DNA of 45,561 nucleotides from a virus: positions 1 through 45,561 of IMG/VR virus record IMGVR_UViG_3300010370_005917; one strand, 5' to 3'. Shown piece by piece: positions 6,165 through 43,637 of this stretch. A program made the translations under genes and the position numbers. The stretch's first letter is position 1, and each line of letters begins with the position of its first letter. The notes under the pieces are model-generated. The model was not told where the DNA came from. It saw only the letters and a list, made by a program, of their open reading frames with translations, and ran no database searches.

Positions 6165-6168
6165 CAAT

Positions 6169-17628: not shown

Positions 17629-17637
17629 TATAAATAT
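17629..17637 (-). promoter_or_regulatory. Candidate late promoter for the leftward baseplate block
   Basis: The minus strand reads GATATTTATA, identical to the copies before 9746 and 11541, ending 15 bases before the ATG at 17613. It immediately follows the hairpin that ends the sigma-factor gene. Confidence 0.5.
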
Positions 17638-17640
17638 CAA

Positions 17641-17668
17641 AAGTGATGATTTTTAAAAATCACCACTT
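17641..17668 (-). terminator. Hairpin containing the sigma-factor stop codon
   Basis: On the minus strand AAGTGGTGATTTTT pairs with AAAAATCATCACTT, with one G-U pair, followed by TTTT. The TAA stop of the sigma gene lies at the tip of the hairpin. It is placed to end the upstream transcript just before the late-type motif at 17629. Confidence 0.55.
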
Positions 17669-19229: not shown

Positions 19230-19233
19230 ATTT

Positions 19234-21386: not shown

Positions 21387-22181
21387 TTAGTCTTTTAAAA
21401 TTTGTTTTTTATTGTTGTTATTTACCTTTTCATCATCTATTTGGTCAAAAATCTCTTCAATTACTTTAATAATTGGATTCCTAACAATATCCTCTTCATT
21501 TCTAAGTTCAACAACACCAAATTTATCTTTTTCTTTAAATTTATCAAGGACAATTTCAAGAGAACTTTCTTTTTTATTTCTAATATCTTTTTGTTTAATA
21601 TCACCTAAAATTATAATCTTTGAATTATCACCAATCCTAGTCATAAGAGTACGCATATTATCTAAAGATATGTTTTGTGCCTCATCGATAATAATAACCG
21701 AATTGTCTATACTTCTACCTCTTACGTAGGCTATTGGTTTTATTTCAATAACTTTTTGTTCACGTAATCTACCAGTTAAATACTCACCAACAATCTTATT
21801 AAAATTATCCAAAAATGAATCCATAAAAGGTTCCATTTTTTCTTCCATAGTCCCCTTTAAAAAACCAATTTCTTCATCTTTTAAAGTGGTAACAGATTTA
21901 ACGAGAATGATTTTTTTATAAGGTGTTTGGGGGTTTTTAACTAATTTAAGAGCTTCAGCACAACTAAGAAAAGTCTTACCACTTCCAGGGAAACCTGATG
22001 CTATGATAACTTCTTTTTCTTTAATAGCTTGTATTAATTTTCTTTGATTTTCAGTTTTAGGTTTAACTTCAACTCGTATTTGATTTAAAGTTTTATCTTC
22101 TTCCGGATGTCTACCGATAAATGATTCAATTTCTTGAATTTCATCTTCGGTTAGTTTTTTATTTCTCCTTCTGTTTGTCAT
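21387..22181 (-). CDS. phoH: PhoH-like ATPase
   Basis: It is 264 residues. KPKTENQRKLIQAIKEKEV leads into Walker A GFPGSGKT (63-70), and SVIIIDEAQN (161-170) is Walker B. KIIILGDIKQKD is the sensor-like block of PhoH proteins. These ATPases are very common in T4-like phages, where their exact role, possibly in RNA metabolism or phosphate stress, is unsettled. Its start overlaps the end of the reductase gene at 22159 by 23 bases, so it is expressed as the last part of the glycan transcript. Confidence 0.92.
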   Translation of the reverse strand: MTNRRRNKKLTEDEIQEIESFIGRHPEEDKTLNQIRVEVKPKTENQRKLIQAIKEKEVIIASGFPGSGKTFLSCAEALKLVKNPQTPYKKIILVKSVTTLKDEEIGFLKGTMEEKMEPFMDSFLDNFNKIVGEYLTGRLREQKVIEIKPIAYVRGRSIDNSVIIIDEAQNISLDNMRTLMTRIGDNSKIIILGDIKQKDIRNKKESSLEIVLDKFKEKDKFGVVELRNEEDIVRNPIIKVIEEIFDQIDDEKVNNNNKKQILKD

Positions 22182-23004
22182 TTAAATAAAGTTTTTCAGA
22201 AAAATTTTTCATTTCAATTATTTGTTCTTTTAATGTCGGTATCTGGAAATTTTTATAGAATTCTGTTTCAGAAGATAATGTTCTATCACATTTTTCAGGT
22301 GTTTCTTTTGGGTTTACAGTAATGTTCAAACCATAAACATCACTGATTGTTGATACTAGTTCAAGTTTATTCAGTGAATTAGAAAAAACGTGTTTTACAC
22401 CTTCCCAATAAAGTTTGTTATCAATAATTTGCTTACAAATTTTGGCTAATTGTAGACATGTAACACCGTTCCAGTGGTGATTGGTAAAACCAAAAACTGA
22501 TTTATCTTTATTAGATTTAACCCATTCTACTAATGATCTACCTTGACCTACTTCTTCACCTATAATAGAAGTACGTATTACGTTACAATTTTTTGGTTCC
22601 CCTAATGATTTTGTTCTACCATATATGTCACTAATATCATGAATATCATTTTCAGTATATTGACCCTTAATACCTGTGAAAACACAGTCAGAAGTTGGGT
22701 GTATCATCTTAACCCCTATGTCTTCACAAACATTAGCTAAAATTCTAGGAAAAACAGAATTAACCTGTATAGCATTTAAATCACCCAATGAGTCAACCAT
22801 TGGTTTAATTGTGCCGATACAGTTTATAACTACATCACCCTCTTTTAATCCTAAGTGGTATAATTTCGTGTGTAATTCTTCTTGACGAACATTCGCTGCG
22901 TCAACTTCATTTCTTGTTACATCAACAACATTGAAGTAACTACTTAAGTAGGTACTCATATATCTACCTAACATTCCTTTTGAACCTAAAACAAATACTT
23001 TCAT
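22159..23004 (-). CDS. RmlD-like sugar-nucleotide reductase (short-chain dehydrogenase)
   Basis: From the chosen ATG it is 281 residues. The NAD(P)-binding strand is MKVFVLGSKGMLGRYMSTYL at the very N-terminus, followed by INCIGTIKPM, SDCVFTGIKGQYTE and the active-site YGRTKSLGE (YxxxK). This is the order seen in dTDP-4-dehydrorhamnose reductases. The frame is open 20 codons further, but the start at 23004 places the dinucleotide-binding strand at the N-terminus and leaves one base after the epimerase stop. It should perform the final reduction of a deoxysugar nucleotide, with the epimerase at 23006 as its partner. Confidence 0.82.
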   Translation of the reverse strand: MKVFVLGSKGMLGRYMSTYLSSYFNVVDVTRNEVDAANVRQEELHTKLYHLGLKEGDVVINCIGTIKPMVDSLGDLNAIQVNSVFPRILANVCEDIGVKMIHPTSDCVFTGIKGQYTENDIHDISDIYGRTKSLGEPKNCNVIRTSIIGEEVGQGRSLVEWVKSNKDKSVFGFTNHHWNGVTCLQLAKICKQIIDNKLYWEGVKHVFSNSLNKLELVSTISDVYGLNITVNPKETPEKCDRTLSSETEFYKNFQIPTLKEQIIEMKNFSEKLYLNDKQKEK

Positions 23005-23005
23005 A

Positions 23006-23422
23006 TTATCTAAAATTTTCATCCCATATGTTCCATTTATTATGTTCTTCCCTAATATCATCACCTAAACCTTCTTCTAAAGTTGATGTTGAGAAGAATA
23101 TTATTTTCGTATTTTCCTCTAACGATTTGAAACCGTTATAATTACCTGGTGGTATCCATAGTATTTTTGGTGACTTGTCACTCAATACGTATTTTGAAAT
23201 CTCTTCTGTTTCCATATTAACCACACCTAATAAAGCTGAACCACTAACTACGTAGACATATTTACCTTCTTTTTTATGTCCATGCCATGCCCTAATAAAC
23301 CCTCTTCTATGGTTTTCTACTTGATAAAATCTCTTAACTCCATCAAAATTAAAGTCGTTTACAAACCTAACAGAACCTCTGTCATCTATGGCTATACCGC
23401 CATTTAAAATTTTTGTACTCAT
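23006..23422 (-). CDS. RmlC-like cupin, probable sugar-nucleotide 3,5-epimerase or isomerase
   Basis: It is 138 residues. RGFIRAWHGHKKEGKYVYVV is the cupin strand of dTDP-4-dehydrorhamnose 3,5-epimerase relatives (usual RGLHYQ...QGKLV pattern), and ILWIPPGNYNGFKSLEE is the second cupin block. It is shorter than typical RmlC (about 180) and closer to WxcM/FdtA-type ketoisomerases, so the precise reaction is open. Its stop is one base from the reductase ATG and its start overlaps the SDR stop upstream by one base. Confidence 0.8.
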   Translation of the reverse strand: MSTKILNGGIAIDDRGSVRFVNDFNFDGVKRFYQVENHRRGFIRAWHGHKKEGKYVYVVSGSALLGVVNMETEEISKYVLSDKSPKILWIPPGNYNGFKSLEENTKIIFFSTSTLEEGLGDDIREEHNKWNIWDENFR

Positions 23423-24408
23423 TAAACTAATTGTTTTTTTTCTTTTTTATTTTTTAAATAAGCTCCATTATGATATACTTTATCTTCAGGATTTAAAATA
23501 CGTCCTTCTTTAAACATTTTCACCATCCTATAAACTTCTTCTTCTACCGTTACTTTAGCTTTATATTTAAAGGTACTCAAAGATTTGGTACTGTCAACTT
23601 TATAGTTTCTTGCATCTTGAAAAGAAATTTCTGTGTAATTAATTTTAGTTCCCGGTATTAAGTTAACTATTCTTTCACCCAGTTCACGGATTACCACATT
23701 TTCTTTTGAGAGTATGTAAATGCCGTTATATTTGTTTTCACAAGCCTCTGTAACATATTCAGCAATATCTTTAACGGCTATAATTGGTCTCCATTGTTCA
23801 CCACCATTAATTGTTATCTCACCTTCTTTAATAGCTTTCATAGTCAAAACGTTAACAACTAAATCCATTCTAATTCTAGAGTAAGTATCCCCTAAACCAA
23901 AAACAGTACCTAACCTAAATACTGTACCACCTAGGTTTAATACATGTTTTTCGGCCTGTAATTTTGTTGAGGCATAAGATGAGAGTGGGTTTGTTTTACT
24001 TTCCTCATTTAATATACCGTCTTGTGCACCATAAACTGAACACGTTGACATAAAAATTAAATGTCTATTTGGTTCTACGACTTCACAAAAATCTTTAATA
24101 GCTTTGTAGTTTATTTCTTCAGTAAGTTTATGGTCTACACTACAAGCTGGATCACCAACTAATGCGGCCATTAAAACTATTATATCAAAATTTTTGGACA
24201 CCTGATAAAGTTTTTCAGTATCTCTAATATCACCATATACGAAATTAATAGGTTTTAAAAACCTATCCTCATATAACAAACTATCATATACTGTTACATC
24301 AAAACCTCTAGCCTGTAATATGTCACAAGTGAGACCACCTATATATCCGGCACCACCTACTAGTAAAACTTTTCTACCAGTTAAATCCACCCAAGGTTTA
24401 TTTTTCAT
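23422..24408 (-). CDS. NAD-dependent sugar-nucleotide epimerase/dehydratase (extended SDR)
   Basis: It is 328 residues from the ATG at 24408. The N-terminal GRKVLLVGGAGYIGG carries the GxxGxxG dinucleotide site, MSTCSVYGAQ the serine/threonine site, YASTKLQAEK the YxxxK pair, and EQWRPIIAVKDIAEYV the sugar-nucleotide C-domain. I cannot tell a 4-epimerase from a 4,6-dehydratase by eye; the reductase and RmlC-like genes downstream make a dehydratase-type step attractive. The ATG overlaps the end of the small gene upstream by 11 bases. In-frame ATGs farther upstream would lengthen the overlap. Confidence 0.83.
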   Translation of the reverse strand: MKNKPWVDLTGRKVLLVGGAGYIGGLTCDILQARGFDVTVYDSLLYEDRFLKPINFVYGDIRDTEKLYQVSKNFDIIVLMAALVGDPACSVDHKLTEEINYKAIKDFCEVVEPNRHLIFMSTCSVYGAQDGILNEESKTNPLSSYASTKLQAEKHVLNLGGTVFRLGTVFGLGDTYSRIRMDLVVNVLTMKAIKEGEITINGGEQWRPIIAVKDIAEYVTEACENKYNGIYILSKENVVIRELGERIVNLIPGTKINYTEISFQDARNYKVDSTKSLSTFKYKAKVTVEEEVYRMVKMFKEGRILNPEDKVYHNGAYLKNKKEKKQLV

Positions 24409-24766
24409 AATTACCATATTTTTTAACTTCTGGATTAAAACCTCCTGTTTTATCACCATTATTTATTCTATTAATAGTATAGATTAATTTTTCATCTATA
24501 CATTTTTTTAATCTAGATCTCTCTTTAACTAATTTAACGTCTTCAATTGAAGCCCAAGATTTGAACTTTTCATCTTCTGGTCTATTCATAACTTCGTCTT
24601 TAAGTTTATATAATTTAAAATTGACAATTGATAACCTATCAATTAATTCTCCCATTGAAATGAGTTCTTCAAATGGGTTATTTAATTCATAAGAATTATC
24701 GTATTTTTTAATTGATGTTAATATAACATCATCAATCAAATCACTTATATTTTTTTCTTTTAACAT
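24398..24766 (-). CDS. Small helical protein in the glycan island
   Basis: It is 122 residues and helical. The segment GELIDRLSIVNFKLYKLKDE is distinctive; I have the impression that similar short proteins accompany glycosyltransferase genes in other phage and bacterial clusters, but I cannot name the family or give a function. It overlaps the epimerase start downstream and lies one base from the methyltransferase stop upstream, so it is part of the same transcript. Confidence 0.7.
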   Translation of the reverse strand: MLKEKNISDLIDDVILTSIKKYDNSYELNNPFEELISMGELIDRLSIVNFKLYKLKDEVMNRPEDEKFKSWASIEDVKLVKERSRLKKCIDEKLIYTINRINNGDKTGGFNPEVKKYGNYEK

Positions 24767-24767
24767 T

Positions 24768-25424
24768 TTATTGATTTATTATAACCTCATATTTATTACC
24801 AAAATTAATTAAACCAGTACCATCAGCACCATTACCACAAAAACTTAAATTCCATTTAGGTTCAGGCACTTCATTCCATATTGGCAACATTGTACCCCAA
24901 TGTATGTCGTCCAATAATGCCAACCCGTTCCAATTATTTTTTCTCAAAAAATCTAAAATTTGTTTTTCAACAATACCACTATGATCTATATCAATAAAAA
25001 TTAAAGAAGAATTTAATAATAATTCAGGGTATTTAAGACAATCACCTATAATGTATTCAATATTAGGTGCATTATTTTTGGCTAGTTTTTGGTCTTCACT
25101 TTCATAAACAAACATGTCAGTCCCTGGTACTCCGTTATGAAATGTTTGTTTGGGTAAATCAAACGAATAAACTTTAATATTTTTATTATATGATAAAGCT
25201 AGACTTGAAGCCCCTGTAAGTGTACCTAGATCTATTAATATTTGATTTGATTCAAAAAAAGTCGATAGGTAAGCTAATAATTTGTAATATTTTTGGCCTG
25301 CTTTAGCATTGACAAATTGAGACCATCCATCTACCCATCTACCTCCAGTATCTACTTGATTAAAAATTTTTGTTAAATCTATTTGATTTATTTTAGATAT
25401 GTCTATTTCTATTTTATTTTTCAT
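24768..25424 (-). CDS. Class I SAM-dependent methyltransferase
   Basis: It is 218 residues. ILIDLGTLTGASSLAL is motif I of the Rossmann methyltransferase fold, KVYSFDLPK the acidic strand-2 end, YIIGDCLKYP motif II, and LIFIDIDHSG motif III with Asp/His residues that could bind a metal, as in cephalosporin-hydroxylase-like (CmcI) sugar and polyketide O-methyltransferases. Within a glycan cluster it probably methylates a sugar hydroxyl. Substrate unknown. Confidence 0.78.
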   Translation of the reverse strand: MKNKIEIDISKINQIDLTKIFNQVDTGGRWVDGWSQFVNAKAGQKYYKLLAYLSTFFESNQILIDLGTLTGASSLALSYNKNIKVYSFDLPKQTFHNGVPGTDMFVYESEDQKLAKNNAPNIEYIIGDCLKYPELLLNSSLIFIDIDHSGIVEKQILDFLRKNNWNGLALLDDIHWGTMLPIWNEVPEPKWNLSFCGNGADGTGLINFGNKYEVIINQ

Positions 25425-25436
25425 TTAATAATTTTT

Positions 25437-26447
25437 TTAATTATTTTTATTTTTCATATAGTTAATAACTTCTTCAACTGATTCTTTAAGTGATATTTTA
25501 GCTTCAAAATTTAAAATTTCTTTAGCTTTAGTTGTATCAGGTAATCTTTTTTGTACATCATATTCAAAACCCACATCACATACATATTTAAAACTATCAT
25601 CAGGTCTTAATATAGACCAAATAATTTCTGCAAGTTCTAAAACTGTTGTAGCTACTGGTGTTGATATATTAAAGTCATTGTTTATTGCTTTATCTGATTC
25701 CATAACTAATCTAATACCTCTAGCTAGATCTAGACCATTTGTGTAACATCTTACTTGATCTCCACAACCTAAAATGTGTAGAGGATTTTGACCTTTTAAA
25801 ATTTTATTAACTAAATCTGGTAAAACATGGGACATCATTAATTTTATATTACCTGATGTTATTTCATGTTCAGTAATAGAATCTTCTTCACCTACACCCA
25901 CACAATTAAATGGTCTAACAATACTAAAAGGTAAACCATATTGTTCTAAAGCGCCTTTTGCAAAATATTCAGAAGCTAATTTTTGAAAACCGTATGTTGA
26001 TGAAGGTGGTGGACAATTTTTAATTTCAGTTTCAGGTGTCGGGTATACGGTAGTCTCTTCAAAGACCATCGAACTAGATAAAACAATTATTCTTTTTAAC
26101 CAACCCTCTTTATAACCTTTAATTGCTGCATCAAAAGTTTGTGCTAATATTCTTTCGTTTGTGGCTAATAAATCATACGCGTATTTATGGAAATAAGAGA
26201 TACCACCAATCATTGCAGCACCAGCTATAATCATATCAGGTTTTTCTTTATCCACAATATCAAAAAAATTGTTAGATAACACATCCTCTATATATAATGT
26301 GAAATTTTCGTGTTTATCTTGTGGTCTTTTTACCACTCCGTACTTGGAGTAATTATCTATACCAATAACTTTATAGTTATTATTTAATAACTCTTGACAA
26401 ATGTAACTACCAATAAAGCCTTGACTACCTGTTAATAATATTTTCAT
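25437..26447 (-). CDS. NAD-dependent sugar-nucleotide epimerase (extended SDR)
   Basis: It is 336 residues. MKILLTGSQGFIGSYICQEL provides the NAD-binding site, LSSSMVFEETTVYPT the serine region, STYGFQKLASEYFAKG the YxxxK pair and IVRPFNCVGVGEE the usual RPFN strand. This is a complete extended SDR of the UDP-glucose 4-epimerase / GDP-fucose synthase type. With the gene at 23422 it makes two such enzymes in the island, suggesting that more than one rare sugar is made. Specificity cannot be read by eye. Confidence 0.83.
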   Translation of the reverse strand: MKILLTGSQGFIGSYICQELLNNNYKVIGIDNYSKYGVVKRPQDKHENFTLYIEDVLSNNFFDIVDKEKPDMIIAGAAMIGGISYFHKYAYDLLATNERILAQTFDAAIKGYKEGWLKRIIVLSSSMVFEETTVYPTPETEIKNCPPPSSTYGFQKLASEYFAKGALEQYGLPFSIVRPFNCVGVGEEDSITEHEITSGNIKLMMSHVLPDLVNKILKGQNPLHILGCGDQVRCYTNGLDLARGIRLVMESDKAINNDFNISTPVATTVLELAEIIWSILRPDDSFKYVCDVGFEYDVQKRLPDTTKAKEILNFEAKISLKESVEEVINYMKNKNN

Positions 26448-26450
26448 TTT

Positions 26451-27245
26451 TTATTCTGTTCTCATTCCGTTAAAAACGGTTTTTTTAAATTTATTATTTT
26501 CACTATTAATCATTTCAAAAAACTTTAAATCTAAATTTAATTCTTTTACGAAAGAATCTAAAGCTTTAGTATCTTTTGGTAGACATACCCCAGCATAACC
26601 TCTAAAATTTTCATTAACATCTAAGTACATATCTTTTGAAGTACCTCTTTTAACAAAAGCATCTTTAATTCTAGAATAGTCTGCTCCTATTTTTTGACAT
26701 ATTTCATACATTTCGTTAGCAAATATTATTTTTGTGGCATTATATATATTAGAATAATACTTCAATAATTCAGCTTCTGTTGGTTTTAATTTATCTATTT
26801 TTTTAGGATAATGTCCGTGACATTTTTTTACCAATTCAAAAACATAGTTAGATTCTGTACCTACAGCTAATAAGTCGTGATTTTCAGTAAAATCAGATAT
26901 CGCACATCTTTCTCTTAAAAATTCTGGCACAAAACATATTTCTAAATCGGTTTCTTTTTTTAATCTCTCAGTAGTAGTAGGTTTTACTGTAGATTTTATT
27001 GCAACAACACCTTTATAATCATAATATTTTAATTCTTTAACAACACTGTCAACAATAGATGTGTCACAACTACCGTCGATATTTGAAGGTGTTGGGACAC
27101 ATACATAACAAATATCGGTATCTAATACATCTATTATTTTAGTATCTAATTTAATATCATGTATTTTAACGGTATGACCCAATTTTTCAAAACCATACTT
27201 ACAGGCCGAACCAATAATACCTAAACCTATTATACCAATTTTCAT
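26451..27245 (-). CDS. UDP-sugar 6-dehydrogenase family, lacking the C-terminal domain
   Basis: It is 264 residues. GLGIIG (7-12) binds NAD, CVPTPSNIDGSCD (49-61) and KSTVKPTTTE (84-93) are family signatures, VPEFLRE (106-112) is the substrate loop, and YAGVCLPKDTKAL (218-229) carries the catalytic Cys221. Classical UDP-glucose dehydrogenases are about 430 residues and continue into a C-terminal UDP-binding domain, which is absent. The protein therefore has the NAD-binding and central domains only. It may still make a uronic acid by borrowing a site from the dimer partner or use another donor. Its start overlaps the upstream glycosyltransferase stop by four bases. Confidence 0.82.
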   Translation of the reverse strand: MKIGIIGLGIIGSACKYGFEKLGHTVKIHDIKLDTKIIDVLDTDICYVCVPTPSNIDGSCDTSIVDSVVKELKYYDYKGVVAIKSTVKPTTTERLKKETDLEICFVPEFLRERCAISDFTENHDLLAVGTESNYVFELVKKCHGHYPKKIDKLKPTEAELLKYYSNIYNATKIIFANEMYEICQKIGADYSRIKDAFVKRGTSKDMYLDVNENFRGYAGVCLPKDTKALDSFVKELNLDLKFFEMINSENNKFKKTVFNGMRTE

Positions 27246-28237
27246 ATTTTTATTTTATTTAATATTTTTTGTAACCTATGTTTAGGTAGGTGATGTTGTT
27301 TGATAAATTCTTTTACTTTTTTCCTGTTTTCGATCACTTCTTCATCAGTGATATTAATTAATTTAATAATTTTATTAGATAAATCAATGTTATCTTCCCA
27401 AAAAATAACATTATTAGGTAATGGTATATTATTTTCTCTATAATAACTTCTAGGTGTACATAAAACATAATTTCCTGTACATATGGATTCCCAAAATCTA
27501 TAAGTTTCTACACCAGTACCTCTTTCAATTATTATTATTTTACTTTTTTCTAATGTATCCCACCATTTATCAAATGAAGTGTGAGAATGATTACCGACTA
27601 ATTGTGGTAATTCGTGATTTCCATATCTGGTTATCTTAGATTTTTCAAGTAAATTTAAAGATTTAATTGTTTCATAAACATGATTTACTGTGTTAATTCT
27701 AGTTGGGTGTGTACTTCCCATTTGACAGTTTAGTACATAATCCAACGGTTTATTATTCTCTTTTAACAATAAATCACTTGGGCAGGCATATGGCATAGAC
27801 ATACCATTTTCCCAATCAGAATCAATAATGTTTGTGTGATAAATTAGATCATTTTTTATTCTAATATTAACATCAGCACCTCGACCATTATCACATCCGT
27901 CAATTAAAACAACTTTACCGTTTTCATTTAAACAATTTTCTATTTCTAAAAATTTATTTTGATTTTGATCCCATATTGAACCTAATATTATTAAATCATA
28001 TTTTTTTTCTGGACTAAATTTACCTAATAGTTTAGCTGTTTTTAACCAATCGTATTTAAAATCAAATAACCCTATTTCGTGCCTCCTTTCAATTGTAGCC
28101 ACATCCGACTCATAAAATTGACACCCACTTAAGACAAAATCTATTTCGTATTGATCTAAAAAGTCTCTTAAACCACAGAAAATACTATCATCACAAAAAT
28201 CTTGTGAACCATGTGCAATGTATAAAATTTTTTTCAT
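27242..28237 (-). CDS. Glycosyltransferase-like protein, GT-B C-terminal type
   Basis: It is 331 residues. The N-terminal half is a Rossmann-like domain with GKVVLIDGCDNGRGADVN. The C-terminal half contains KIIIIERGTGVETYRFWESI followed by GNYVLCTPRS, matching the ExxR/E-x-C-G-P-like nucleotide-sugar region of exostosin and GT1-like enzymes. No signal or membrane segment is visible, so it should act in the cytoplasm. It overlaps both neighbours by four bases (ATGA), a sign of tight translational coupling. Confidence 0.72.
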   Translation of the reverse strand: MKKILYIAHGSQDFCDDSIFCGLRDFLDQYEIDFVLSGCQFYESDVATIERRHEIGLFDFKYDWLKTAKLLGKFSPEKKYDLIILGSIWDQNQNKFLEIENCLNENGKVVLIDGCDNGRGADVNIRIKNDLIYHTNIIDSDWENGMSMPYACPSDLLLKENNKPLDYVLNCQMGSTHPTRINTVNHVYETIKSLNLLEKSKITRYGNHELPQLVGNHSHTSFDKWWDTLEKSKIIIIERGTGVETYRFWESICTGNYVLCTPRSYYRENNIPLPNNVIFWEDNIDLSNKIIKLINITDEEVIENRKKVKEFIKQHHLPKHRLQKILNKIKI

Positions 28238-29040
28238 TTTTTTATATAATTTATTTTTTTTAAATCTAAACCACCTAAATAACCCCCTTGATTTGGGTCT
28301 AGTAATTTATAAAATTTACACCCTTCCATCATTATGTCAGCATCATGTACTGGTAGATTTCTATTTTTATTTAAATAATCCATAACTTCTAATATTTTAT
28401 CATAACACATACATTGTTTAAAATAATAATTATGATAATTGTTTGAAAAGTATCTAGAACTTAGATTTAATTCTATATTTTGATTGTCTATCTGTGGTCC
28501 AGACAGTAAATTTTTTATTATATCATTATGTATAAACATGGCCGGAAATTCAACAAAAAAATTATTTTTTTTATTTATATCCCTAATAAAAGATATTTCA
28601 TTATCTTTTTTATATACTATTCTTTCTTCTATTGAATCCATGTCACCAAAAGCATGTGGATATCTTAATAAACTACCACCTAAATTAAAAGATAAAATAC
28701 CACATTTTTTATTATTAAAATCTATTTTTAAAATATCATTAATATTTTCAGGTATATAATCAATTATTATATCGTCTTCAGTATAAAAAATATATTCGGA
28801 TTTAGAAATTTCCAAAGCGTGTTTAAAACTTAAATGTTTACTCTTAAAAGAAACTACATCAACAATCCATCCTTTATTTTTAAAATATTCAACAACACTA
28901 TCTTCTATCCAGTCTTGATCTATTATATCTACGGATATAATTTTTTTATTAAATTTAAAATTTAATAAATCAATACTGTCTACTGATTTTTTTAACCACT
29001 CAATCCTTTTTGGGGTGGATAATAGAATACAATCAATCAT
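28234..29040 (-). CDS. Glycosyltransferase-like protein, GT-A type
   Basis: It is 268 residues. After the opening strand DCILLSTPKRIEWLKKSV, the segment SEYIFYTEDDIIID supplies the acidic DxD-type site expected of GT-A enzymes, with an internal NLGGSLLRYPHAFG and a His/Asp-rich C-terminal region (VHDADIMMEG). Similarity to family 2 is weaker than for its neighbours. It lies in the coupled run of the island. Confidence 0.7.
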   Translation of the reverse strand: MIDCILLSTPKRIEWLKKSVDSIDLLNFKFNKKIISVDIIDQDWIEDSVVEYFKNKGWIVDVVSFKSKHLSFKHALEISKSEYIFYTEDDIIIDYIPENINDILKIDFNNKKCGILSFNLGGSLLRYPHAFGDMDSIEERIVYKKDNEISFIRDINKKNNFFVEFPAMFIHNDIIKNLLSGPQIDNQNIELNLSSRYFSNNYHNYYFKQCMCYDKILEVMDYLNKNRNLPVHDADIMMEGCKFYKLLDPNQGGYLGGLDLKKINYIKK

Positions 29041-29051
29041 TTTATATATAT

Positions 29052-29684
29052 TTATTTTATTATAATAGATTTAACAAAATCTTGTGATGACCCTAAAATA
29101 GATTTATCCCAGGTTAAAAAAGTATCATTAGTTTTTTTACCTAAATTGTAGTCATAATTTTCTTCTGGTAATAATCGTTTTACATAACCATTTACTTCAT
29201 TCCATTTTTTAAGAAAATGTGACCTAGTTCTAGAAGTATCCCAACGAGATTTAATATCTTCTCTGTATGATATTTCAAAAACATTGTACATAGCAATATT
29301 TGCTTCTAACATTCTTCTCATGTAATCACTATCTTCATAATTACCCCCTATAAATCTCTCATCCATAAAACCTACACTTCTGAAAAGTTCTTTTTTAAAA
29401 CCAAAAAATCCCCAAGCATATAGTCCAACGAAACCAAATCCCTCATCAATTAATTTTAAAGTTCTTTCTATATCGTTTTTTGTGGGTCTTGCTCTATCAT
29501 TACATATGATAACTATTTCTGTAGGACATTCTATGACAGAATCATTTATTAATTTGGAAAATGATGGGTAACCTGTACCGTCTTTTACTACATAATTTTC
29601 ACCTATAGTAGTTAAATTATTTTTTGTTTCTTCTATTAAATCTGGTTGATTTGATGGGATTATTATAGTGTATGTTTTTTTCAT
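29052..29684 (-). CDS. Glycosyltransferase family 2-like
   Basis: At 210 residues it is short. TYTIIIPSNQPDLIEETKNN is a typical opening, EIVIICNDRARP holds the acidic site in modified form (ND rather than DD), and LFRSVGFMDERFIGGNYEDS matches the acceptor-side GxFDExF pattern of family 2 enzymes. The short length suggests a minimal catalytic domain without a membrane or accessory domain. Confidence 0.75.
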   Translation of the reverse strand: MKKTYTIIIPSNQPDLIEETKNNLTTIGENYVVKDGTGYPSFSKLINDSVIECPTEIVIICNDRARPTKNDIERTLKLIDEGFGFVGLYAWGFFGFKKELFRSVGFMDERFIGGNYEDSDYMRRMLEANIAMYNVFEISYREDIKSRWDTSRTRSHFLKKWNEVNGYVKRLLPEENYDYNLGKKTNDTFLTWDKSILGSSQDFVKSIIIK

Positions 29685-29687
29685 TTT

Positions 29688-31222: not shown

Positions 31223-31229
31223 AAAATTT

Positions 31230-32483: not shown

Positions 32484-32509
32484 ATTAAATTATTTTTTTA
32501 TATATTTTA

Positions 32510-33250
32510 TTAACTATCTTTTTCACCTTCTATTATATGGTAAACTAAAGAATCAAAAACTGTTATGTGTTTCATACCATATTTGTTTTCTAACACATCA
32601 TGAAAATAATAATCATCACTTGATTTTATTGGGTGCCCACTTAAGGTACCAATACCATCAGTGTAAATATTACCTTCAGGGTAACCTCCAGATTCTAAAA
32701 ATCTACTAACTTCAAAAACACACGCCCCATATAATCCTTTTTCTTTTATTATAGGTACTTTTGCATTTTCAGCAAAATAATTCCACTCATCAAAATTTAT
32801 AGTTTTAGCATGTCTACCAAAATGGTTAGGCCCTAAATTAATAGCGTGTAGACCACTATTCATTTTTCCACTCTCAACCAATCTACCACACGGTATATTA
32901 ATACCATCATGGTGTACTAATAAATTTTTTAACCAGTCTTTAGACAACACATTATCGGAATTTAATAAACAAACATTATCATATTTACTAGTTTTTACCG
33001 AATAATTATAAGCTCTATAAACTCTATTTAAGTAATATTCTTTAGGATTAGGGTCGTTATAAATAGTGTAAGGAATTCCTGAGTTTTTTAAAGCTTCTAA
33101 TACCTCATCTGTAGCGTCATTAGCTACAATTCTAACACCCACATCCCAATCCTCTAATTTAACCAGATCACTTTTAAATTGATTCACCATTAAGTTAAGA
33201 TAATCAATTGATTTATAGATTAAAGTAATAATTTCTATATTTTTTTTCAT
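32510..33250 (-). CDS. Glycosyltransferase family 2-like
   Basis: It is 246 residues. IEIITLIYKSIDYLNLMVNQ opens the fold, VCLLNSDNVLSKDWL carries the NSDN-type donor site (Asp in place of the second acidic residue), and GLYGACVFEVSRFLESGGYP matches the acceptor-side GG[FY] block. A C-terminal DDYYFHDVLENK segment supplies the catalytic base region. Substrate unknown. Confidence 0.78.
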   Translation of the reverse strand: MKKNIEIITLIYKSIDYLNLMVNQFKSDLVKLEDWDVGVRIVANDATDEVLEALKNSGIPYTIYNDPNPKEYYLNRVYRAYNYSVKTSKYDNVCLLNSDNVLSKDWLKNLLVHHDGINIPCGRLVESGKMNSGLHAINLGPNHFGRHAKTINFDEWNYFAENAKVPIIKEKGLYGACVFEVSRFLESGGYPEGNIYTDGIGTLSGHPIKSSDDYYFHDVLENKYGMKHITVFDSLVYHIIEGEKDS

Positions 33251-33251
33251 T

Positions 33252-34037
33252 TTAATTAGATTTATAACAAAAATTAGGATATTTTTCTAAAAATTTATCC
33301 ATCATTTTAGGTTTATTATTTGAAATATCGACAATTTTCTTTTGTGCATAATCTTCAGTTCTATTCCACAAATCTTTTTGTGATTCCATTTTTTCTTTTA
33401 TATCATCAACAGAACCAACATCATTTATAATATAATGAGACTCAGCAATACTTTCCACTTTTAATTTAACCCTCTCAGGTCCACCCATAAAAGAATAGTG
33501 CCAACCACCATTTTGTTGGGAATTAAAACCACTTCTTGCCGCATTTCTTAAATGTTGTGGTTGATTAAAGGTCCCATAGGTTGCCATTATAGGACCGTCC
33601 CAATGACAATTTTGTTCACAATTGACGTAGTAATAATACAGTTTTTGTCTAAAAGTTACCCAATTGGGGTTATTTAAATTGGCTTTTATGGTTTCAGTAT
33701 TAGGTATCTCATCAATATCTGAAATTATAATTTTATCACCAGGACCAGCGTAATCAACTAATCCCCTCATAATACAATTTCTTTGAAAATTCTCTGCAGT
33801 CCATATATCATTTTGAGAATATGGTGGCATATCATCTACTTTGATATGAATAATTTTATCGAGATATTCTTTAAATTTATTTTTATTATTTTCAAAAATA
33901 TAGTCTTTGGGTTTACCAGTGTGTGTTTTATTAGCTTCAACCAATACAAAATAATCTACAGTATCGTAGAGTTCCATAAGTCTAAGTTCTAATAACTCTA
34001 GTTCATTAAAAAATTTAAAACAATCAAATACTTTCAT
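33252..34037 (-). CDS. Glycosyltransferase family 17 (GlcNAc-transferase III type)
   Basis: It is 261 residues. The opening FDCFKFFNELELLELRLMEL continues to DYFVLVEANKTHTGKPK, then the Asp-rich GDKIIISDIDEIPN and the aromatic WVTFRQKLYYYYVNCE. This is the signature order of GT17, the family of eukaryotic N-acetylglucosaminyltransferase III, also found in bacteria and viruses. A GlcNAc-type donor is suggested by family and is consistent with the UDP-GlcNAc 2-epimerase nearby, though the latter makes ManNAc. No membrane anchor is present, unlike the Golgi enzymes. Confidence 0.87.
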   Translation of the reverse strand: MKVFDCFKFFNELELLELRLMELYDTVDYFVLVEANKTHTGKPKDYIFENNKNKFKEYLDKIIHIKVDDMPPYSQNDIWTAENFQRNCIMRGLVDYAGPGDKIIISDIDEIPNTETIKANLNNPNWVTFRQKLYYYYVNCEQNCHWDGPIMATYGTFNQPQHLRNAARSGFNSQQNGGWHYSFMGGPERVKLKVESIAESHYIINDVGSVDDIKEKMESQKDLWNRTEDYAQKKIVDISNNKPKMMDKFLEKYPNFCYKSN

Positions 34038-34046
34038 TTTTTTATT

Positions 34047-34835
34047 TTATCTGTTAGACTGCCAATTAGGCTCTTGTTTAATTATTTCTAGTAATTTTCT
34101 ATTTTTATCTATTAATTCATGTACATTTAAATGTTGATAATTGTGAGTCGAATAATGCCATTGATGTACAACAAATGGGTTATTAACTATTTTAATGTTT
34201 AAACCTTTTTTTTGTATCCTAATTAAAATTTCATTATCATCGAAGGCGATACCATGTGCAAATCTTTCATCAAACCCACCTAAATCATCTAAATTTTTTT
34301 TAGTTATCGCTGAACAAAAATGATAACCAACAGGACGTAATAAAGAATGGTTATACCAACCATTATCACCATCATGTGTTACTGGTTTATGATTTGGTTC
34401 TATGATATTTAATATAGTATCTAAATCAAATTCTTTTTCTAAAAAATTTGTTAATATATTAGTTTTATTTTGGTCTATAGAATAACAACCAAAACTTAAA
34501 TACTCGTTTTCATTTATTTTTGATGATTTATTTATAACCTCACCCACGTGTATACATTCTGGGTTTTGTACAATAATAACATCACCTTTAGCTTCTTTAA
34601 AACCAATATTAAAAACGGCACAAGGATTTATATACCATTTATTTTCCTTTTCTATTCTAATTACTTTTAAGAAAGGAAAATCTCCTTCCAAGTCCTCTAT
34701 TCTATCTTCTTCAGAGGAACAATCATCTACTGCAATAACTTCAACTTCTTTATCACCTTTAAATTTATTAATAGTTTTTAAAGTGTTAATAAATAATTTT
34801 TTTCTGTTATGATATGCTGTTACTATAGAGATCAT
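34047..34835 (-). CDS. Glycosyltransferase family 2 / galactosyltransferase-C-like
   Basis: It is 262 residues. MISIVTAYHNRKKLFINTL, EVIAVDDCSSEED, GDVIIVQNPECIH and the C-terminal NLDDLGGFDERFAHGIAFDD follow the order of GT2 enzymes with a galactosyltransferase-like C-terminal region (GGFDERF...G..FDDNE). The late VHQWHYST segment may bind the acceptor. It overlaps the 2-epimerase gene upstream by four bases. Confidence 0.82.
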   Translation of the reverse strand: MISIVTAYHNRKKLFINTLKTINKFKGDKEVEVIAVDDCSSEEDRIEDLEGDFPFLKVIRIEKENKWYINPCAVFNIGFKEAKGDVIIVQNPECIHVGEVINKSSKINENEYLSFGCYSIDQNKTNILTNFLEKEFDLDTILNIIEPNHKPVTHDGDNGWYNHSLLRPVGYHFCSAITKKNLDDLGGFDERFAHGIAFDDNEILIRIQKKGLNIKIVNNPFVVHQWHYSTHNYQHLNVHELIDKNRKLLEIIKQEPNWQSNR

Positions 34836-35908
34836 AATTTTTCTCTCAAAATTTTAATTATATTTTCAGAAGTTTTACCGTCTCCCAACCAATTTATGTT
34901 TCTTTTATCACTATCTAATAATAACCAATTTTCTGAAGAAGCCCAGCTTATGTGGTTTTTTTCATTAACATTAATCATAAAAGAACAATTATTTTCGACA
35001 GATTCTGGTCTTTCAGTATAATCACGAGGTACAATAACTGGGGTATCTAAAATTGCTGGTTCCTCTTGTGCGGTACCAGAATCGGATATAATGAATTTAG
35101 AATGGTATACTTGGTTTAGGTAGGATTTAAATGGTAGTAAATCGACTAACTTTATATACCCATATTTAGATAAATCAATATCAAATTGTTTTATATAATC
35201 TAAAGTACGTTTAAAACCTAACATAAACACAGGTAAGTTGTGTTTATGTCCCATATCGTTACTATATTTAATAATATTTTCTAACCTGCTCTTATATTTA
35301 AAATTTTCAGGTCTATGTATATCTAAAACTATTCTATCATTTAATTTAGTTTCTGTAGGTTTAAATTTTTTAGCTACTTCTACAATGGTATTACCAACTA
35401 CAAATACTGAGTCAGGGTTGATATTTTCTTTTACGGCTTTTTGTTTGTAATTTTCGTGGTAAACAAATAGGTAATCACTACAGTGATCACAGACAACTCT
35501 ATTAATCTCCTCTAACATCCTTTTATCATAAGAACGCATACCCGCTTCAATATGACCTATTACATAACCCTCTTTTTTTAAAGGTACAGATGATGTTACA
35601 GAATTAGAGTCACCAAGGAATAGTATTATGTCTGGGTTTAAATTTTCTTTTCGAATTAATTCTATAAGTTTTACTGATAAATCCGCACTTTGATGAAAAT
35701 GCTCTTTTCCTACCCCACCAATTTCTAAGTTATAGTTAGGTTTACGGATTTCCAATTCATCAAAAAAAACGTCTGACAACAATTTATCAAAGTGTTGACC
35801 AGTATGTATTAATACGTGATTAAAATTATCATCTAATTTTTTAAAAATTTCTGACATTCTAATAAAATCGGGTCTTATACCAGTTACAGTTATTATTGTT
35901 TTATTCAT
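34832..35908 (-). CDS. wecB: UDP-N-acetylglucosamine 2-epimerase (WecB type)
   Basis: It is 358 residues, a normal length. It interconverts UDP-GlcNAc and UDP-ManNAc. ITVTGIRPDFIRMSEIFKKL is the opening (usual GTRPE), IHTGQH the UDP loop, GHIEAGMRSYDKRMLEEINR (118-137) the main signature, VLDIHRPENF the His block and FIISDSGTAQEEPAILDTPV the C-terminal nucleotide site. All key blocks are present, so it is probably active. It shows that the phage alters the host amino-sugar nucleotide pool. Confidence 0.92.
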   Translation of the reverse strand: MNKTIITVTGIRPDFIRMSEIFKKLDDNFNHVLIHTGQHFDKLLSDVFFDELEIRKPNYNLEIGGVGKEHFHQSADLSVKLIELIRKENLNPDIILFLGDSNSVTSSVPLKKEGYVIGHIEAGMRSYDKRMLEEINRVVCDHCSDYLFVYHENYKQKAVKENINPDSVFVVGNTIVEVAKKFKPTETKLNDRIVLDIHRPENFKYKSRLENIIKYSNDMGHKHNLPVFMLGFKRTLDYIKQFDIDLSKYGYIKLVDLLPFKSYLNQVYHSKFIISDSGTAQEEPAILDTPVIVPRDYTERPESVENNCSFMINVNEKNHISWASSENWLLLDSDKRNINWLGDGKTSENIIKILREKL

Positions 35909-36711
35909 TATATATTATTTTTTATTACCCAATTATTTAATAAATTTTCAAAATGTTCTGAATCTGTTAAACCATTTAAGGGTATACCATAATTATTTAT
36001 AACATTTTTACCTTTTATGTAATGATTAGTGAATCCATCAACAATGTGTATGAAATCTCTTTCAAAAAACCAAGGATCACCAATACCATTTGTATGTGGG
36101 TTGTGTAAAATTTCGTTAAAAAAGGAGTCATTGCATTTGAATATAAAATTATTTAATATATCACCTTTTATTGCAAACATAGTACCAACCAAAAAACATC
36201 TTATTGGCCTATTAATAAATTCCAAACCAAATCTTTTCAAATAAAAATCCCATTCAGAATCTACCCAACAATTAGGTAGGGGGGTTATTGTATTACCATA
36301 AGCACCTAATTTTTTATCTTTATTAAATAATTCTACTAAATCATTAAAATTTTCTAATAAAGTATTTAAATGGCTTTTTCTAACATCATGCCTACCACTT
36401 TTAGTACCTTGTGTATGTAAAAACAATACTAAATCATATTCTTTTTGACCTTTATTTTTATAAATTTTTAATGCGGTTTGATAAGCTGAGGCGTCAGAAC
36501 TAATAACTAAATTTTTAGGAGTAATCTCATAATTTAAACTATATTTTTTTACCACATCAACCCATTCTTCTACACAATTTGAGGGGTTTATACCTACAAA
36601 AATATCGGCTTCCGGTATTTGTTGTTTTATTTTATTTAAAATTTCCTCACCAACCCATAAACTATCAATATAAGGGATATGGCTAGCCATTATTACTGCA
36701 TATTTACCCAT
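35908..36711 (-). CDS. Glycosyltransferase-like protein, rhamnan-synthesis F-like features
   Basis: It is 267 residues. AVIMASHIPYIDSLWVGEE, YDLVLFLHTQGTKSGRHDVR and KKLGAYGNTITPLPNCWVD resemble the LHTQ / LGAxG blocks of RgpF-type rhamnan-synthesis proteins and related transferases. I see no clear DxD. It overlaps the next upstream gene by 19 bases and the 2-epimerase by one base. A transferase role is inferred from these blocks and from the neighbours. Confidence 0.65.
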   Translation of the reverse strand: MGKYAVIMASHIPYIDSLWVGEEILNKIKQQIPEADIFVGINPSNCVEEWVDVVKKYSLNYEITPKNLVISSDASAYQTALKIYKNKGQKEYDLVLFLHTQGTKSGRHDVRKSHLNTLLENFNDLVELFNKDKKLGAYGNTITPLPNCWVDSEWDFYLKRFGLEFINRPIRCFLVGTMFAIKGDILNNFIFKCNDSFFNEILHNPHTNGIGDPWFFERDFIHIVDGFTNHYIKGKNVINNYGIPLNGLTDSEHFENLLNNWVIKNNI

Positions 36712-37472
36712 GTATTTGTTTTTTTAACTATTAGATTTTTACTCGGTAATCCACCCCATAAAACTTTTTCAGGGTATTTCCAGTTATTATAATGTTCCAC
36801 TATCTTATCAATATCTTTATTAAAATTAATTGAAGCAGAACTGTTAGTTAATTTTGTTTTTATATCATTTCTAATATAAGAACCATGATGCATTTGAATA
36901 TCTTTTCTTTCTAAAATAATTGGGTTGGTACTTGGGTACATTCTCCTAGTAGGATCAACTAAAACTGGCGCAGGAGCACCAATAACGTAATTTGAATCGT
37001 TTTTAATTTTAAATATTAAAGAAACGTAATATTCTTCTGGTGGGTCTAAATTATACTCCCAAGTTTTATAATAAGTTTGCATTTGACAATAAGAAGAATC
37101 ATAATCACCTTCTTCCATAGTCTTTTTAAGATTTTCAAATTCTGATGTTATATAATATTCATCAGAATCCATTGACATGTGGTGTGTACAACCAACTCCT
37201 TGAGAAAGAGCTAAGCCAATATTTCTTTTTTGGATCTCATTAAAGTGACCACCTTTATTAATTTTCGGATTGTACTCAAAAATTTCATCAACTAAACCTT
37301 CTGATTTTAATCTTTCTAAAAGAGGAACTAATTCCGTATTACAAGGATTACCAAAATTAGAAATGGTTTGATAAACAACACTTATATAGTCAACATGTTG
37401 TCTTATTTGTTTTATAGAACCTTCTAAAAGTTCTTCCCCGTCAAAGATATTATAAGATATACCTAATTTCAT
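36693..37472 (-). CDS. Glycosyltransferase-like protein, GT-A type
   Basis: It is 259 residues. It starts LGISYNIFDGEELLEGSIKQ and includes QKRNIGLALSQGVGCTHHM followed by SMDSDEYYITSEFE, a good DxD-type site for a GT-A fold with two acidic residues before aromatic residues. The C-terminal part contains QMHHGSYIRNDIKTKL. I do not recognise the exact family. It is coupled at both ends. Confidence 0.7.
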   Translation of the reverse strand: MKLGISYNIFDGEELLEGSIKQIRQHVDYISVVYQTISNFGNPCNTELVPLLERLKSEGLVDEIFEYNPKINKGGHFNEIQKRNIGLALSQGVGCTHHMSMDSDEYYITSEFENLKKTMEEGDYDSSYCQMQTYYKTWEYNLDPPEEYYVSLIFKIKNDSNYVIGAPAPVLVDPTRRMYPSTNPIILERKDIQMHHGSYIRNDIKTKLTNSSASINFNKDIDKIVEHYNNWKYPEKVLWGGLPSKNLIVKKTNTWVNMQ

Positions 37473-38209
37473 TATTTTAATAAATAATTATTTTTATAAA
37501 AATCTAAAGCTAAAAAATCATCAATTTCATTACTGTTGTGTATATCCCAGTCAGTCAGATTTCTTTTTGTTGGTATATCAGCTCTACCTCTTTCTATTTT
37601 TTCTTTAAACTCTTTTAAAGTTTTACAAAAATAATGGTTTAGTTGAATAACATCTATTGTACCATTAGGATTTAAAGCACTAGTAACTTTATTAAAATTT
37701 GTATCATATAAAATGGTATTTGGATGATGTGGGTCTACCATTTTAATGTTTTCATATTTTAATTTTAATATTGTTTTTGTATGTTGATTAACACCTTCTT
37801 GTCTTTTCGTAAATCTTTCTAAAACACTGTAATTATCATCCGCAATATCATCATGACCATTGTTACCAAATAAAACCCAATTCACTGCAATACCATATTC
37901 TACATCTTCATAATCTTTAATGAAATCTTTTATATTCTTATGTTTTTTTAGAACAATAAACTCATCGACATCAATAAAAGCTGCCCAATCATAATCATAT
38001 TTAAATCTATCAATAAAAGTATTGTAGGCACTAACTTGTTTTACTTCACCATTAAATTTAATGGTTATAACTTTTTCATCTTCTAAATCGGAACTCCAGT
38101 TATTTTCAAATATAAAAATATCATCAAAACCTAATTTTTTATGATAATCAACCCATTCTTTAATGTAGTTATCTTCATTTTTGGCAATACATACTAAAGC
38201 TATTTTCAT
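37472..38209 (-). CDS. Glycosyltransferase family 92/2-like
   Basis: It is 245 residues. LVCIAKNEDNYIKEWVDYHK followed by LGFDDIFIFENN, and DWAAFIDVDEFIVL with the DxD site, are the hallmark of the GT92-like/Glyco_tranf_2_4 group. LNHYFCKTLKEFKEKIERGR near the C-terminus completes the pattern. These enzymes often transfer galactose or related sugars, but the donor is not predictable here. Confidence 0.85.
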   Translation of the reverse strand: MKIALVCIAKNEDNYIKEWVDYHKKLGFDDIFIFENNWSSDLEDEKVITIKFNGEVKQVSAYNTFIDRFKYDYDWAAFIDVDEFIVLKKHKNIKDFIKDYEDVEYGIAVNWVLFGNNGHDDIADDNYSVLERFTKRQEGVNQHTKTILKLKYENIKMVDPHHPNTILYDTNFNKVTSALNPNGTIDVIQLNHYFCKTLKEFKEKIERGRADIPTKRNLTDWDIHNSNEIDDFLALDFYKNNYLLK

Positions 38210-38214
38210 ACCAT

Positions 38215-39780
38215 TTATCTTAAAAACTGTTTTAATTCATCAGATATTTTAATAATATGATCTAAGGTTTTGTTATCAACATTATCAAAATAATTATAGG
38301 TTTTTTTATTGTTAACAATAAAAGGTATTAAATATCTTGAGTAATCTTCGTATTCTCTTTTCATTTTCTTATCATCTTTATTTCTAGTTTGACTTTCATA
38401 GTGGTAACACACTGCTTCACCACAAAAAATATTTTCTTTATTTAGATTTAAACATTGAATGTTCAATTCAACATCTTCGAAACATTCTCTATAGTTTGTA
38501 TTAAATCCACCTATTTTTTGAAATAGTTCTTTATTAATTAATAAAAAGGCCCCAGTATTACCAAATATTTTTTGATTGTTAGCATAGTAAGAATAATAAC
38601 TTTTAAAACCCTTATGTGTTAATATTATTCTATACATACCATTTGGTTCTCTGTTTAAATAAACCCTTATCCCAGAATGTTGGACGGTATTATCATCAAA
38701 ATGCAAACGTGCACCAATAGTCCCAACTGTTTTTTTATTTTTAAGATAAACAGCGACCATACGTGTAATGGCGTTATTTAATAATTTAATGTCGTTGTTA
38801 CAAAAAAGAATAAGTTCAGTATCTTTATCTACATGATTTTCAACAACATCGTTATTTATAACAGCAAAATTGTAAAAATCATATTCAATAAGGTTGATAT
38901 GTGACATTTTTGAAATAAAATCTTTTATTTCTGTTTTTTCTTCAGGTGTTGACCCAGTATCTGCGATATATATTTTAAAATTACTGTACCCATCATGGTC
39001 ATGTATTGAATTAATACATTGTTTTAATAAATGAACGTTACCCTTTGTTGGGATGATAATTCCAATTTTTGGGGTTTCTTTTAATTTTTTATTAGGGTCT
39101 TCGATTTCAAATCTAACTTCAGGTTTTATTTTATAAGGTAATTTTTCTTTATATTTTTCAACAAATTCTTGTCTATTTTTTTCCCATTCCTCATTTGTAA
39201 TCCCAATAGATTTATGTGTGATTTTAATATCAAACATAACACCTACTTTAACACCTGAAAGATGGTTATTAAAAGTAAAATCAACATCATATAAATGAAA
39301 ACCCTTTATATTTTCATCAAACCTTTCTTTAATTCTATCTTTATGTACAGTAAAAAACAAACCGTCCAGAATTACGGTTTCAATAATTTCTTCACCAAAA
39401 TTTTCAGAATATCTATTTTCCCATGTTTTACCTTCATGTGAATGGGATACAATACCAATCATTTTTGTTTGGTCCTCCCACCAACGACCAGTTTCCGACA
39501 TATCAGTTGTACCTGCCACACCTAATATACCGTATTCTGTATTTTGAAAATGTTTTATTATTTTTTTACCCCAACCTTCTTTTAAAAGAATATCATCATG
39601 ACTAAAAACAACTATTTTGTTTTTACTTTTATTTAAACCTTCGTTATAACATTGAGTTAAGGACTTTTCACCATTATTAACAATTTCAATAATTTCAAAT
39701 TCCTTTAAACCTATTGTTTTTGTAATATAAGATTGAAAATCTTTATTTGGTTTCCTGGTGGAATAAACTATTGTTACCAT
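38215..39780 (-). CDS. Two-domain glycosyltransferase
   Basis: It is 521 residues with two GT-A-like domains. The first (about 1-210) has KNKIVVFSHDDILLKEGWGK and a C-terminal YDVDFTFNNHLSG region. The second (about 230-480) starts PKIGIIIPTKGNVHLLKQCI, has ELILFCNNDIKLL and FGNTGAFLLINKELFQKIGG, and ends with an ECFEDVELNIQCLN block, a standard family 2 layout. Such bifunctional enzymes can add two different sugars in turn. Its ATG overlaps by one base the stop of a 57-residue ORF upstream. Confidence 0.85.
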   Translation of the reverse strand: MVTIVYSTRKPNKDFQSYITKTIGLKEFEIIEIVNNGEKSLTQCYNEGLNKSKNKIVVFSHDDILLKEGWGKKIIKHFQNTEYGILGVAGTTDMSETGRWWEDQTKMIGIVSHSHEGKTWENRYSENFGEEIIETVILDGLFFTVHKDRIKERFDENIKGFHLYDVDFTFNNHLSGVKVGVMFDIKITHKSIGITNEEWEKNRQEFVEKYKEKLPYKIKPEVRFEIEDPNKKLKETPKIGIIIPTKGNVHLLKQCINSIHDHDGYSNFKIYIADTGSTPEEKTEIKDFISKMSHINLIEYDFYNFAVINNDVVENHVDKDTELILFCNNDIKLLNNAITRMVAVYLKNKKTVGTIGARLHFDDNTVQHSGIRVYLNREPNGMYRIILTHKGFKSYYSYYANNQKIFGNTGAFLLINKELFQKIGGFNTNYRECFEDVELNIQCLNLNKENIFCGEAVCYHYESQTRNKDDKKMKREYEDYSRYLIPFIVNNKKTYNYFDNVDNKTLDHIIKISDELKQFLR

Positions 39781-43611: not shown

Positions 43612-43637
43612 AAAAAACCCCACATAATAGTGGGGTT
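43612..43637 (-). terminator. Terminator, leftward
   Basis: On the minus strand AACCCCAC and GTGGGGTT pair around TATTAT, followed by a T run. It ends the leftward transcript from the right-end structural genes before the glycosyltransferase gene at 42263. Confidence 0.85.

Follow-up and report, generated by a model that had tools for sequence, protein, structure and literature searches.

What does a tailed phage do with a large block of glycan genes that seems to lack any export machinery, and to what would the product be attached? The question is raised by the IMG/VR virus record IMGVR_UViG_3300010370_005917, a linear sequence of 45,561 bases that was analysed over its whole length (the window). 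Between positions 22159 and 39780 it carries an island of 21 genes (window genes are numbered g1, g2 and so on), all leftward and 99.6% coding, in which 19 of the 20 junctions are spaced by at most 12 nt and 11 overlap. A preliminary description, made from the letters of the window, rightly recognised this 17.6-kb glycan island and proposed assembly on a phage protein or on DNA in the cytoplasm. It missed the main point, which is visible only with relatives: most of the island is replaced as a cassette from phage to phage. The explanation that we favour, at a probability of about 50%, is a virion-protein glycan assembled in the cytoplasm, of which conserved glycosyltransferases (GTs) would make the linkage core and the swapped cassettes the outer part.

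The relatives were collected with two island genes, g45 and g36, and the capsid gene as baits. This gave 68 sequences, the window included, which were checked for two anchors, the dUTPase gene g50 and the PhoH gene g26, g47 or g25 being used as the substitute for a missing one. Both anchors were present in 33 of the 68, and removal of copies (L084, L100, L114, L135, L137 and L138, together with L134, a duplicate of L136; relatives bear L numbers) left 26 distinct cassettes, that of the window among them. They measure 3.5–20 kb and hold 4–23 open reading frames (ORFs), in a single direction in each. The 359 cassette ORFs fall into 125 families, 71 of which were seen once, and the only near-universal gene is g47 (25 of the 26 by clustering). 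A g45-family gene occurs in 19 of the 26, partly because g45 was a bait; the six cassettes reached via the capsid alone all possess g47, and none has a match to g45. The Pfam scan covered 118 of the 122 cluster representatives that reach a length of 80 amino acids, and the 25 most frequent of the 86 families found include glycosyltransferase, methyltransferase, sulfotransferase, aminotransferase, hexapeptide and epimerase families. The block, then, is a cassette of hypervariable content whose site, with dUTPase on one side and PhoH on the other, is fixed. Its layout in the window is as follows.

40907–41566, minus strand: g50, dUTPase, upstream anchor of the fixed site
38215–39780, minus strand: g47, conserved two-domain GT-A/GT2 transferase
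37472–38209, minus strand: g46, GT2/GT92-type transferase by Pfam, not found in the nearest relative, L082
36693–37472, minus strand: g45, GT-like, at the cassette border, kept in close relatives at 78–85%, with no match in Pfam or the PDB
22159–36711, minus strand: main part of the variable cassette, g27 to g44, by Pfam
21387–22181, minus strand: g26, PhoH, downstream anchor; the similarity of relatives resumes about 10–15 bp before the gene

The shared fraction of the cassette hardly varied with the identity of the phage core (Spearman 0.06, p 0.26, for 306 pairs that are not independent), a gene being counted as shared at 50% identity or more and g47-sized genes being excluded. The window and L082 have cores that are 80% identical (median of nine proteins) and 3 cassette genes in common, of 23 and 21; L090 and L093, with a core identity of 96% (six genes), also share 3, of 21 and 17, and L119 and L133 (core 73%) share none. 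Not all close pairs are so different: L099/L128 (core 98%) have 4 genes in common, of 9 and 8. With L109 the window has 10 genes in common (median 68%) at a core identity of 41%, and with L097, L101, L119 and L136 it shares 8, 9, 6 and 7 genes, respectively (medians 61–73%), at cores of 44–48%, the value for L101 being derived from three core genes. In the DNA alignments (positions in the window were calculated back from the reverse strand), similarity between the window and L082 ends at ~36720, close to where g45 ends, and returns at ~22196, 15 bp before PhoH, with one non-syntenic match of 214 bp in between; for L090 and L093 it returns 10 bp before the PhoH match. Relative to L082, the swapped part of the window comprises ~22196–36720 (~14.5 kb) plus g46, and what these alignments depict is the exchange of non-homologous content inside borders that are conserved. 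Our searches of the open-access literature brought up no account of glycan cassettes at a fixed site in phages. A recent bacterial donor was not seen for g43, the one gene searched; the pattern-based genome_contigs search gave one relative, at 29%.

Eight genes in the main part of the cassette are GT candidates (g34, g35, g36, g38, g40, g41, g42 and g44), and the others are g27, g28, g29, g32, the DUF4254 gene g30, g31, g37, g39, g33 and g43. The preliminary description had counted at least eleven GTs in the island, and a total of about eleven is likely. Eight have Pfam support, over the curated cut-off for g38, g41 (GT17), g42, g46 and g47 (two domains) and below it, at E 0.0003–0.005, for g34, g36 and g40; g35, g44 and g45 lack usable Pfam support and are likely members. 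Profiles of g45 and of g44 homologues matched no solved structure, and two g44 homologues gave weak matches to GT-like families (RgpF, E 0.0015; BT_3535-like, E 0.0018). The sugar-nucleotide enzymes named at that time were all matched by Pfam, namely g27 (RmlD-like), g28 (RmlC/FdtA-like), g29 and g32 (extended short-chain dehydrogenases/reductases), g33 (UDP-sugar dehydrogenase) and g43 (UDP-GlcNAc 2-epimerase, WecB-like). Two of the three proposed methyltransferases are solid (g37, FkbM; g39, C-methyltransferase) and the third, g31, is weak (FtsJ, E 0.008). The g33 product (26451–27245, minus strand) has only 264 amino acids, and its matches cover the NAD-binding and central domains only; this short form is not a local truncation, because L109 has a homologue of 263 amino acids at 75%. 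The L082-L136 cassettes also hold GT6, GT10 and GT7-type transferases, sulfotransferases and many methyltransferase families, and some of these families are best known from animals.

Three further transferases lie outside the island, at 18.4–20.3 kb (g22 and g23) and at 42.3 kb (g52). They had been noticed before and are confirmed here as a conserved part of the system, to which g47, previously counted with the island, belongs as well rather than to the swapped part.

42263–43582, minus strand: g52, conserved GT-B/GT4-type transferase, by phrog_7162 and by fold
19234–20316, minus strand: g23, conserved GT4-type transferase, below the Pfam cut-off, with a profile match to AmGGT (8xsg)
18429–19247, minus strand: g22, conserved GT2-type transferase, by Pfam

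In the relatives, g22 and g23 adjoin tail-side genes, g52 stands at the opposite end and g47 heads the cassette; by this arrangement the four are a conserved GT set around a variable cassette. Among 21 capsid-anchored records, 12 have g47 and 11 have g52, and all 11 with g52 also have g47. Records of cultured phages gave no match for g23, 10 for g47 (none covering 80% of the query), 21 for g46, 8 for g39, 19 for g43 and 133 for g52, all at less than 60% identity.

How might such a locus work? It is arranged like a bacterial capsule or O-antigen locus, in which sugar-nucleotide and GT genes are likewise exchangeable between conserved borders, minus the export genes: here the initiating transferase, flippase and polymerase are absent in the records searched. 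In these large T4-like phages, g22, g23, g47 and g52 would initiate and elongate a linkage core attached to a virion protein, and the exchangeable cassette would make unusual nucleotide sugars and add and methylate the outer residues. Since all the enzymes are soluble, the oligosaccharide would be built in the cytoplasm, and diversifying selection on the outer glycan may be the reason why cassettes are replaced. Virus-encoded soluble GTs in a conserved and a variable set, as expected of an autonomous glycosylation of virions, are present. With a virion protein as acceptor, one would understand why the core is conserved, why the enzymes are soluble and why there is diversification, and by analogy such an acceptor has precedents in chloroviruses and mycobacteriophages. 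In more general terms, and a little more tentatively, we suggest that tailed phages, probably of Bacteroidota, carry "serotype" loci: near-identical phages would bear different phage-encoded, cytoplasmically built virion glycans, whole cassettes being exchanged between phages with cores that differ by half and a linkage core made by four transferases anchoring each.

A serious rival, which we nevertheless consider somewhat unlikely, is modification of the host surface, in which an O-unit or capsule repeat would be built or changed on the lipid carrier of the host and displayed by the host's flippase, polymerase and ligase, so as to exclude competing phages or to free progeny from receptor-bearing debris. 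The set of RmlC- and RmlD-like, WecB-like, UDP-sugar dehydrogenase and FkbM enzymes is typical of O-antigen loci, and cassette swapping would match the variety of hosts. The same role has been proposed for the GTs in the hypervariable host-recognition cluster of pelagimyophages, which are T4-like phages as well (PMC7029224; this and the other papers cited are used from excerpts of their text). That region holds tail-fibre genes and is read as serving modification of host O-chains, whereas the borders here are dUTPase and PhoH. No fibre gene was recognised in the cassette of the window, nor among the first 25 of the 86 Pfam families from the 118 relatives' representatives.

What argues against the host surface is the absence of initiating and membrane components from the window and the relatives searched. 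None of the 56 window proteins has a membrane-like segment (19-residue Kyte-Doolittle mean >1.6); the preliminary description had seen none in the island. Because the window is a fragment, in which absence proves little, the relatives were searched for export genes too. The flippase PF01943, Wzy_C (PF04932) and the WecA-type PF00953 were each found in 0 of 27 relatives' records (controls 13, 9 and 12 of 14, respectively), and Bac_transf (PF02397) in 0 of 37 (controls 9 of 14); the last two families have no match in the window. When contigs of 345, 294 and 100 kb were read by ORF, no ORF had more than four predicted spans, and those with three or four spans measured at most 411 amino acids, bar one protein of 1875 amino acids with three; 11 of the 359 cassette ORFs have one weak hydrophobic stretch. 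These negatives are strong, not final, since the records of the relatives may be incomplete. Neither the lipid-linked initiating transferase nor the flippase and polymerase of a Wzx/Wzy-type surface polysaccharide locus were found, and the gene content supports cytoplasmic assembly without phage-encoded export, beyond the fragment too. A role on the host surface would also leave unexplained the constancy of four GTs amid the change of all else, and the authors of the BASEL study think that modifying the O-antigen completely in the course of a lytic infection is likely futile (PMC11990801). The inference of the preliminary description that a lack of export genes speaks against the host surface is, however, less strong than it was put, since the lipid carrier and flippase of the host would be open to use by a phage. 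If the product does sit on the host surface, it would be the lytic-phage counterpart of O-antigen conversion by temperate phages. As to the proposal of cytoplasmic assembly on protein or DNA, the export-free assembly stands and protein stays the better hypothesis, but DNA loses ground.

The timing of expression is of interest here. The unit from g52 to g21 (17653–43582) is bounded by terminator-like hairpins.

43616–43637, minus strand: terminator-like hairpin before g52; similar hairpins precede g52 in relatives
17653–18429, minus strand: g21, last gene of the unit, putative sigma factor by a Sigma70_r2 match under the cut-off (E 0.0066), conserved in relatives
17636–17673, minus strand: terminator-like hairpin of 17 pairs after g21; next comes TATTTATA, before g20

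The octamer TATTTATA lies 13–24 nt before g2, g5, g12, g14, g16 and g20 (positions 1339, 3860, 9733 and 11517 on the plus strand, 13977 and 17636 on the minus strand), and within 45 nt of the gene start it occurs for 6 of 24 genes outside the unit vs 0 of 32 within it (Fisher p 0.004). In deduplicated upstream regions of relatives it is enriched before structural genes, strongly so for g5 (31/54), g16 (24/43) and g20 (17/23) and also for g1 (7/44), and is not enriched before g52 (1/26), g47 (1/35), g26 (2/24), g23 (0/24) and g56 (0/13); the count before g11 is 3/70. It is likely, from these counts, to be the late promoter of the lineage and, so read, its absence at the glycan unit indicates that this unit is not late. 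A late-promoter link of the glycan genes to the virion genes had been considered as a candidate, but the motif counts indicate the opposite. For the T4 late promoter TATAAATA, none of the ten genes tested showed a clear upstream enrichment, the highest ratio being that of g20 (5/23 vs 1.6 expected). A loose host-type promoter (TTG-N18-22-TANNTTT) before g52 was seen in 9/26 vs 2.1, which is suggestive only, and a stricter Bacteroides consensus in 0/26.

A unit that is not late would suit the glycosylation of DNA, in which the transferases decorate hydroxymethylated bases against restriction, an idea that we consider distinctly unlikely. The unit without the late-type motif sits with dUTPase, a PolB-type exonuclease and PhoH, and in Pseudomonas phage PsgM04F distant relatives of g52 lie in a four-GT cluster adjoining primase and polymerase I. 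Of the window proteins, 30 were scanned, and at E 0.01 none matched the T4 DNA-glucosyltransferase (AGT, BGT) or TAGT families; the AGT/BGT search was confined to these 30, and TAGT was found in 0 of 27 relatives' records over the cut-off, with one weak match. Thymidylate synthase is present as one gene per record in 15 of 20 relatives' records, and its base-recognition motif has Asn in 12 of 12 loci checked from these 15 records. Asn marks dUMP enzymes and Asp marks dCMP hydroxymethylase; Asn is still compatible with a dUMP hydroxymethylase. Tet/JBP proteins were found in 0 of 20 records over the cut-off, with one weak match, a weak test of which the control rang in none. Distant g52 relatives also occur in Escherichia phages, Phapecoctavirus and Justusliebigvirus records included, and are found among phi92-like phages; these have a putative dTDP glycosylation machinery, but the Vequintavirinae and their relatives, phi92-like phages among them, are described as exceptionally susceptible to restriction (PMC8594841). 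Glucosylation of DNA was named as a possible role by the authors who in 2025 described the moraphages, large aquatic T4-related phages (PMC12619734). Taken from these gene searches, DNA is an unlikely acceptor, and a protein seems to us the better hypothesis.

Predicted structures were also considered as a route to the acceptor, but they name none. The model of g52 (predicted local distance difference test, pLDDT, 89.6) is a generic GT-B enzyme whose best matches are varied GT4 enzymes; that of g47 (pLDDT 91.9) is a generic tandem GT-A protein, matched best by chondroitin and heparosan synthases and, lower in the ranking, by polypeptide GalNAc-transferases and mimivirus R699. The GT4 relatives of g52 include BshA and MshA, which act on small molecules, and this might point to another kind of product with a role within the cell, either a glycan in free or lipid-linked form or a small molecule that bears sugars. 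We regard this as very improbable, as about ten GTs and several methyltransferases suggest a long oligosaccharide and a similarity of fold at 10–13% identity says little on the acceptor.

Several observations weigh against a glycan on a virion protein. The timing does not favour the virion over DNA and fits DNA modification or host takeover just as well; the fold searches leave the acceptor unnamed; and the cassette of the window contains no structural protein. The profile of g23 matches AmGGT with an E of 2.8e-18; the AmGGT homologue Agt extends glucose on N-glucosylated peptides, but glycopeptides are not accepted by AmGGT itself, the relative of g23 whose structure is solved (PMC12159676). 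A g47 match is absent in 9 of the 21 capsid-anchored records (fragments or true absence), five loci have g47 inverted ~9 kb from g45, and the anchors are absent in several distant records.

Cases of phage virion glycosylation are few, and its purpose is debated. Freeman et al. reportedly described, in 2023, mycobacteriophage-encoded glycans on capsid and tail tube; to our knowledge, no large swapped cassette is known there. Phages that have the same core and different glycan cassettes would offer a direct test of the function of these glycans, be it antigenic escape, adsorption, protection or evasion of defence, and the cassettes would represent a reservoir of soluble, export-free glycan pathways. 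The chlorovirus PBCV-1 resembles the system proposed here in its virus-encoded enzymes, including a conserved multidomain GT, and in the conserved core of its capsid glycans, which is made by virus enzymes independently of organelles; it differs in being a eukaryotic virus with known glycan and acceptor (PMC7826918).

The phage itself can be placed by its head block (portal g1, protease g5 and capsid g11), which has matches among the head PHROGs of phages and the gp23 proteins of the T4 type. Among annotated records, those closest in the capsid are Microcystis phage Mel-JY01, uncultured huge phages, Rhodothermus phage RM378 and the Flavobacterium phages vB_FspM_immuto. Capsid relatives are encoded on at least 600 viral contig stretches, the best being 77% identical among the matches listed, and among the best 80 of these at least 600 stretches there are contigs of up to 345 kb. 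By these head genes, the window comes from a large T4-like phage, of which it is a fragment of 45.6 kb; its G+C content is mostly 25–31%, and it has no tRNA genes. In its gene set (glutamine synthetase, PhoH, dUTPase, a putative sigma factor and several conserved GTs) it resembles the moraphages, a likeness of shared genes alone. These have T4-type head genes, PhoH, dUTPase and, in some, glutamine synthetase, as well as four core GT orthogroups, unexplored variable islands and likely Bacteroidota hosts; a glycan cassette, its fixed site and its replacement are not described in the excerpts (PMC12619734). Our guess is that their four core GT orthogroups correspond to g22, g23, g47 and g52.

Other observations concern single genes. 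The small proteins g6, g7, g9, g12, g14, g15 and g54 (within 4666–5290, 9746–10405 and 11541–11963 on the plus strand and 5688–6239, 12008–12424 and 44371–44751 on the minus strand) share, by eye, an N-terminus like (V)IRL..DIE.LIKKI(I/L)(R/K)E near the start, which presumably resembles the capsid-targeting peptide cleaved by the T4-type protease; a regular expression for such N-termini was too strict to be informative. The same g54 (44371–44751, minus strand) has a WYL domain (E 1.3e-07) and is kept at 34–39% in three relatives. Next to the conserved transferase g47, g48 (39960–40451, minus strand) is HslV-peptidase-like (phrog_1040) and lies directly upstream of g47 in several relatives, and g49 (40453–40758, minus strand), which some of the close relatives possess, matches the SET domain (PF00856, E 4.5e-10), unexpectedly for a phage. 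A glutamine synthetase gene (2227–3369, plus strand; PF00120, E 1.6e-17) stands within the head-gene block, with the same order of neighbours in L002 and L004 (61–63%), and is located elsewhere in the 294-kb contig (47%).

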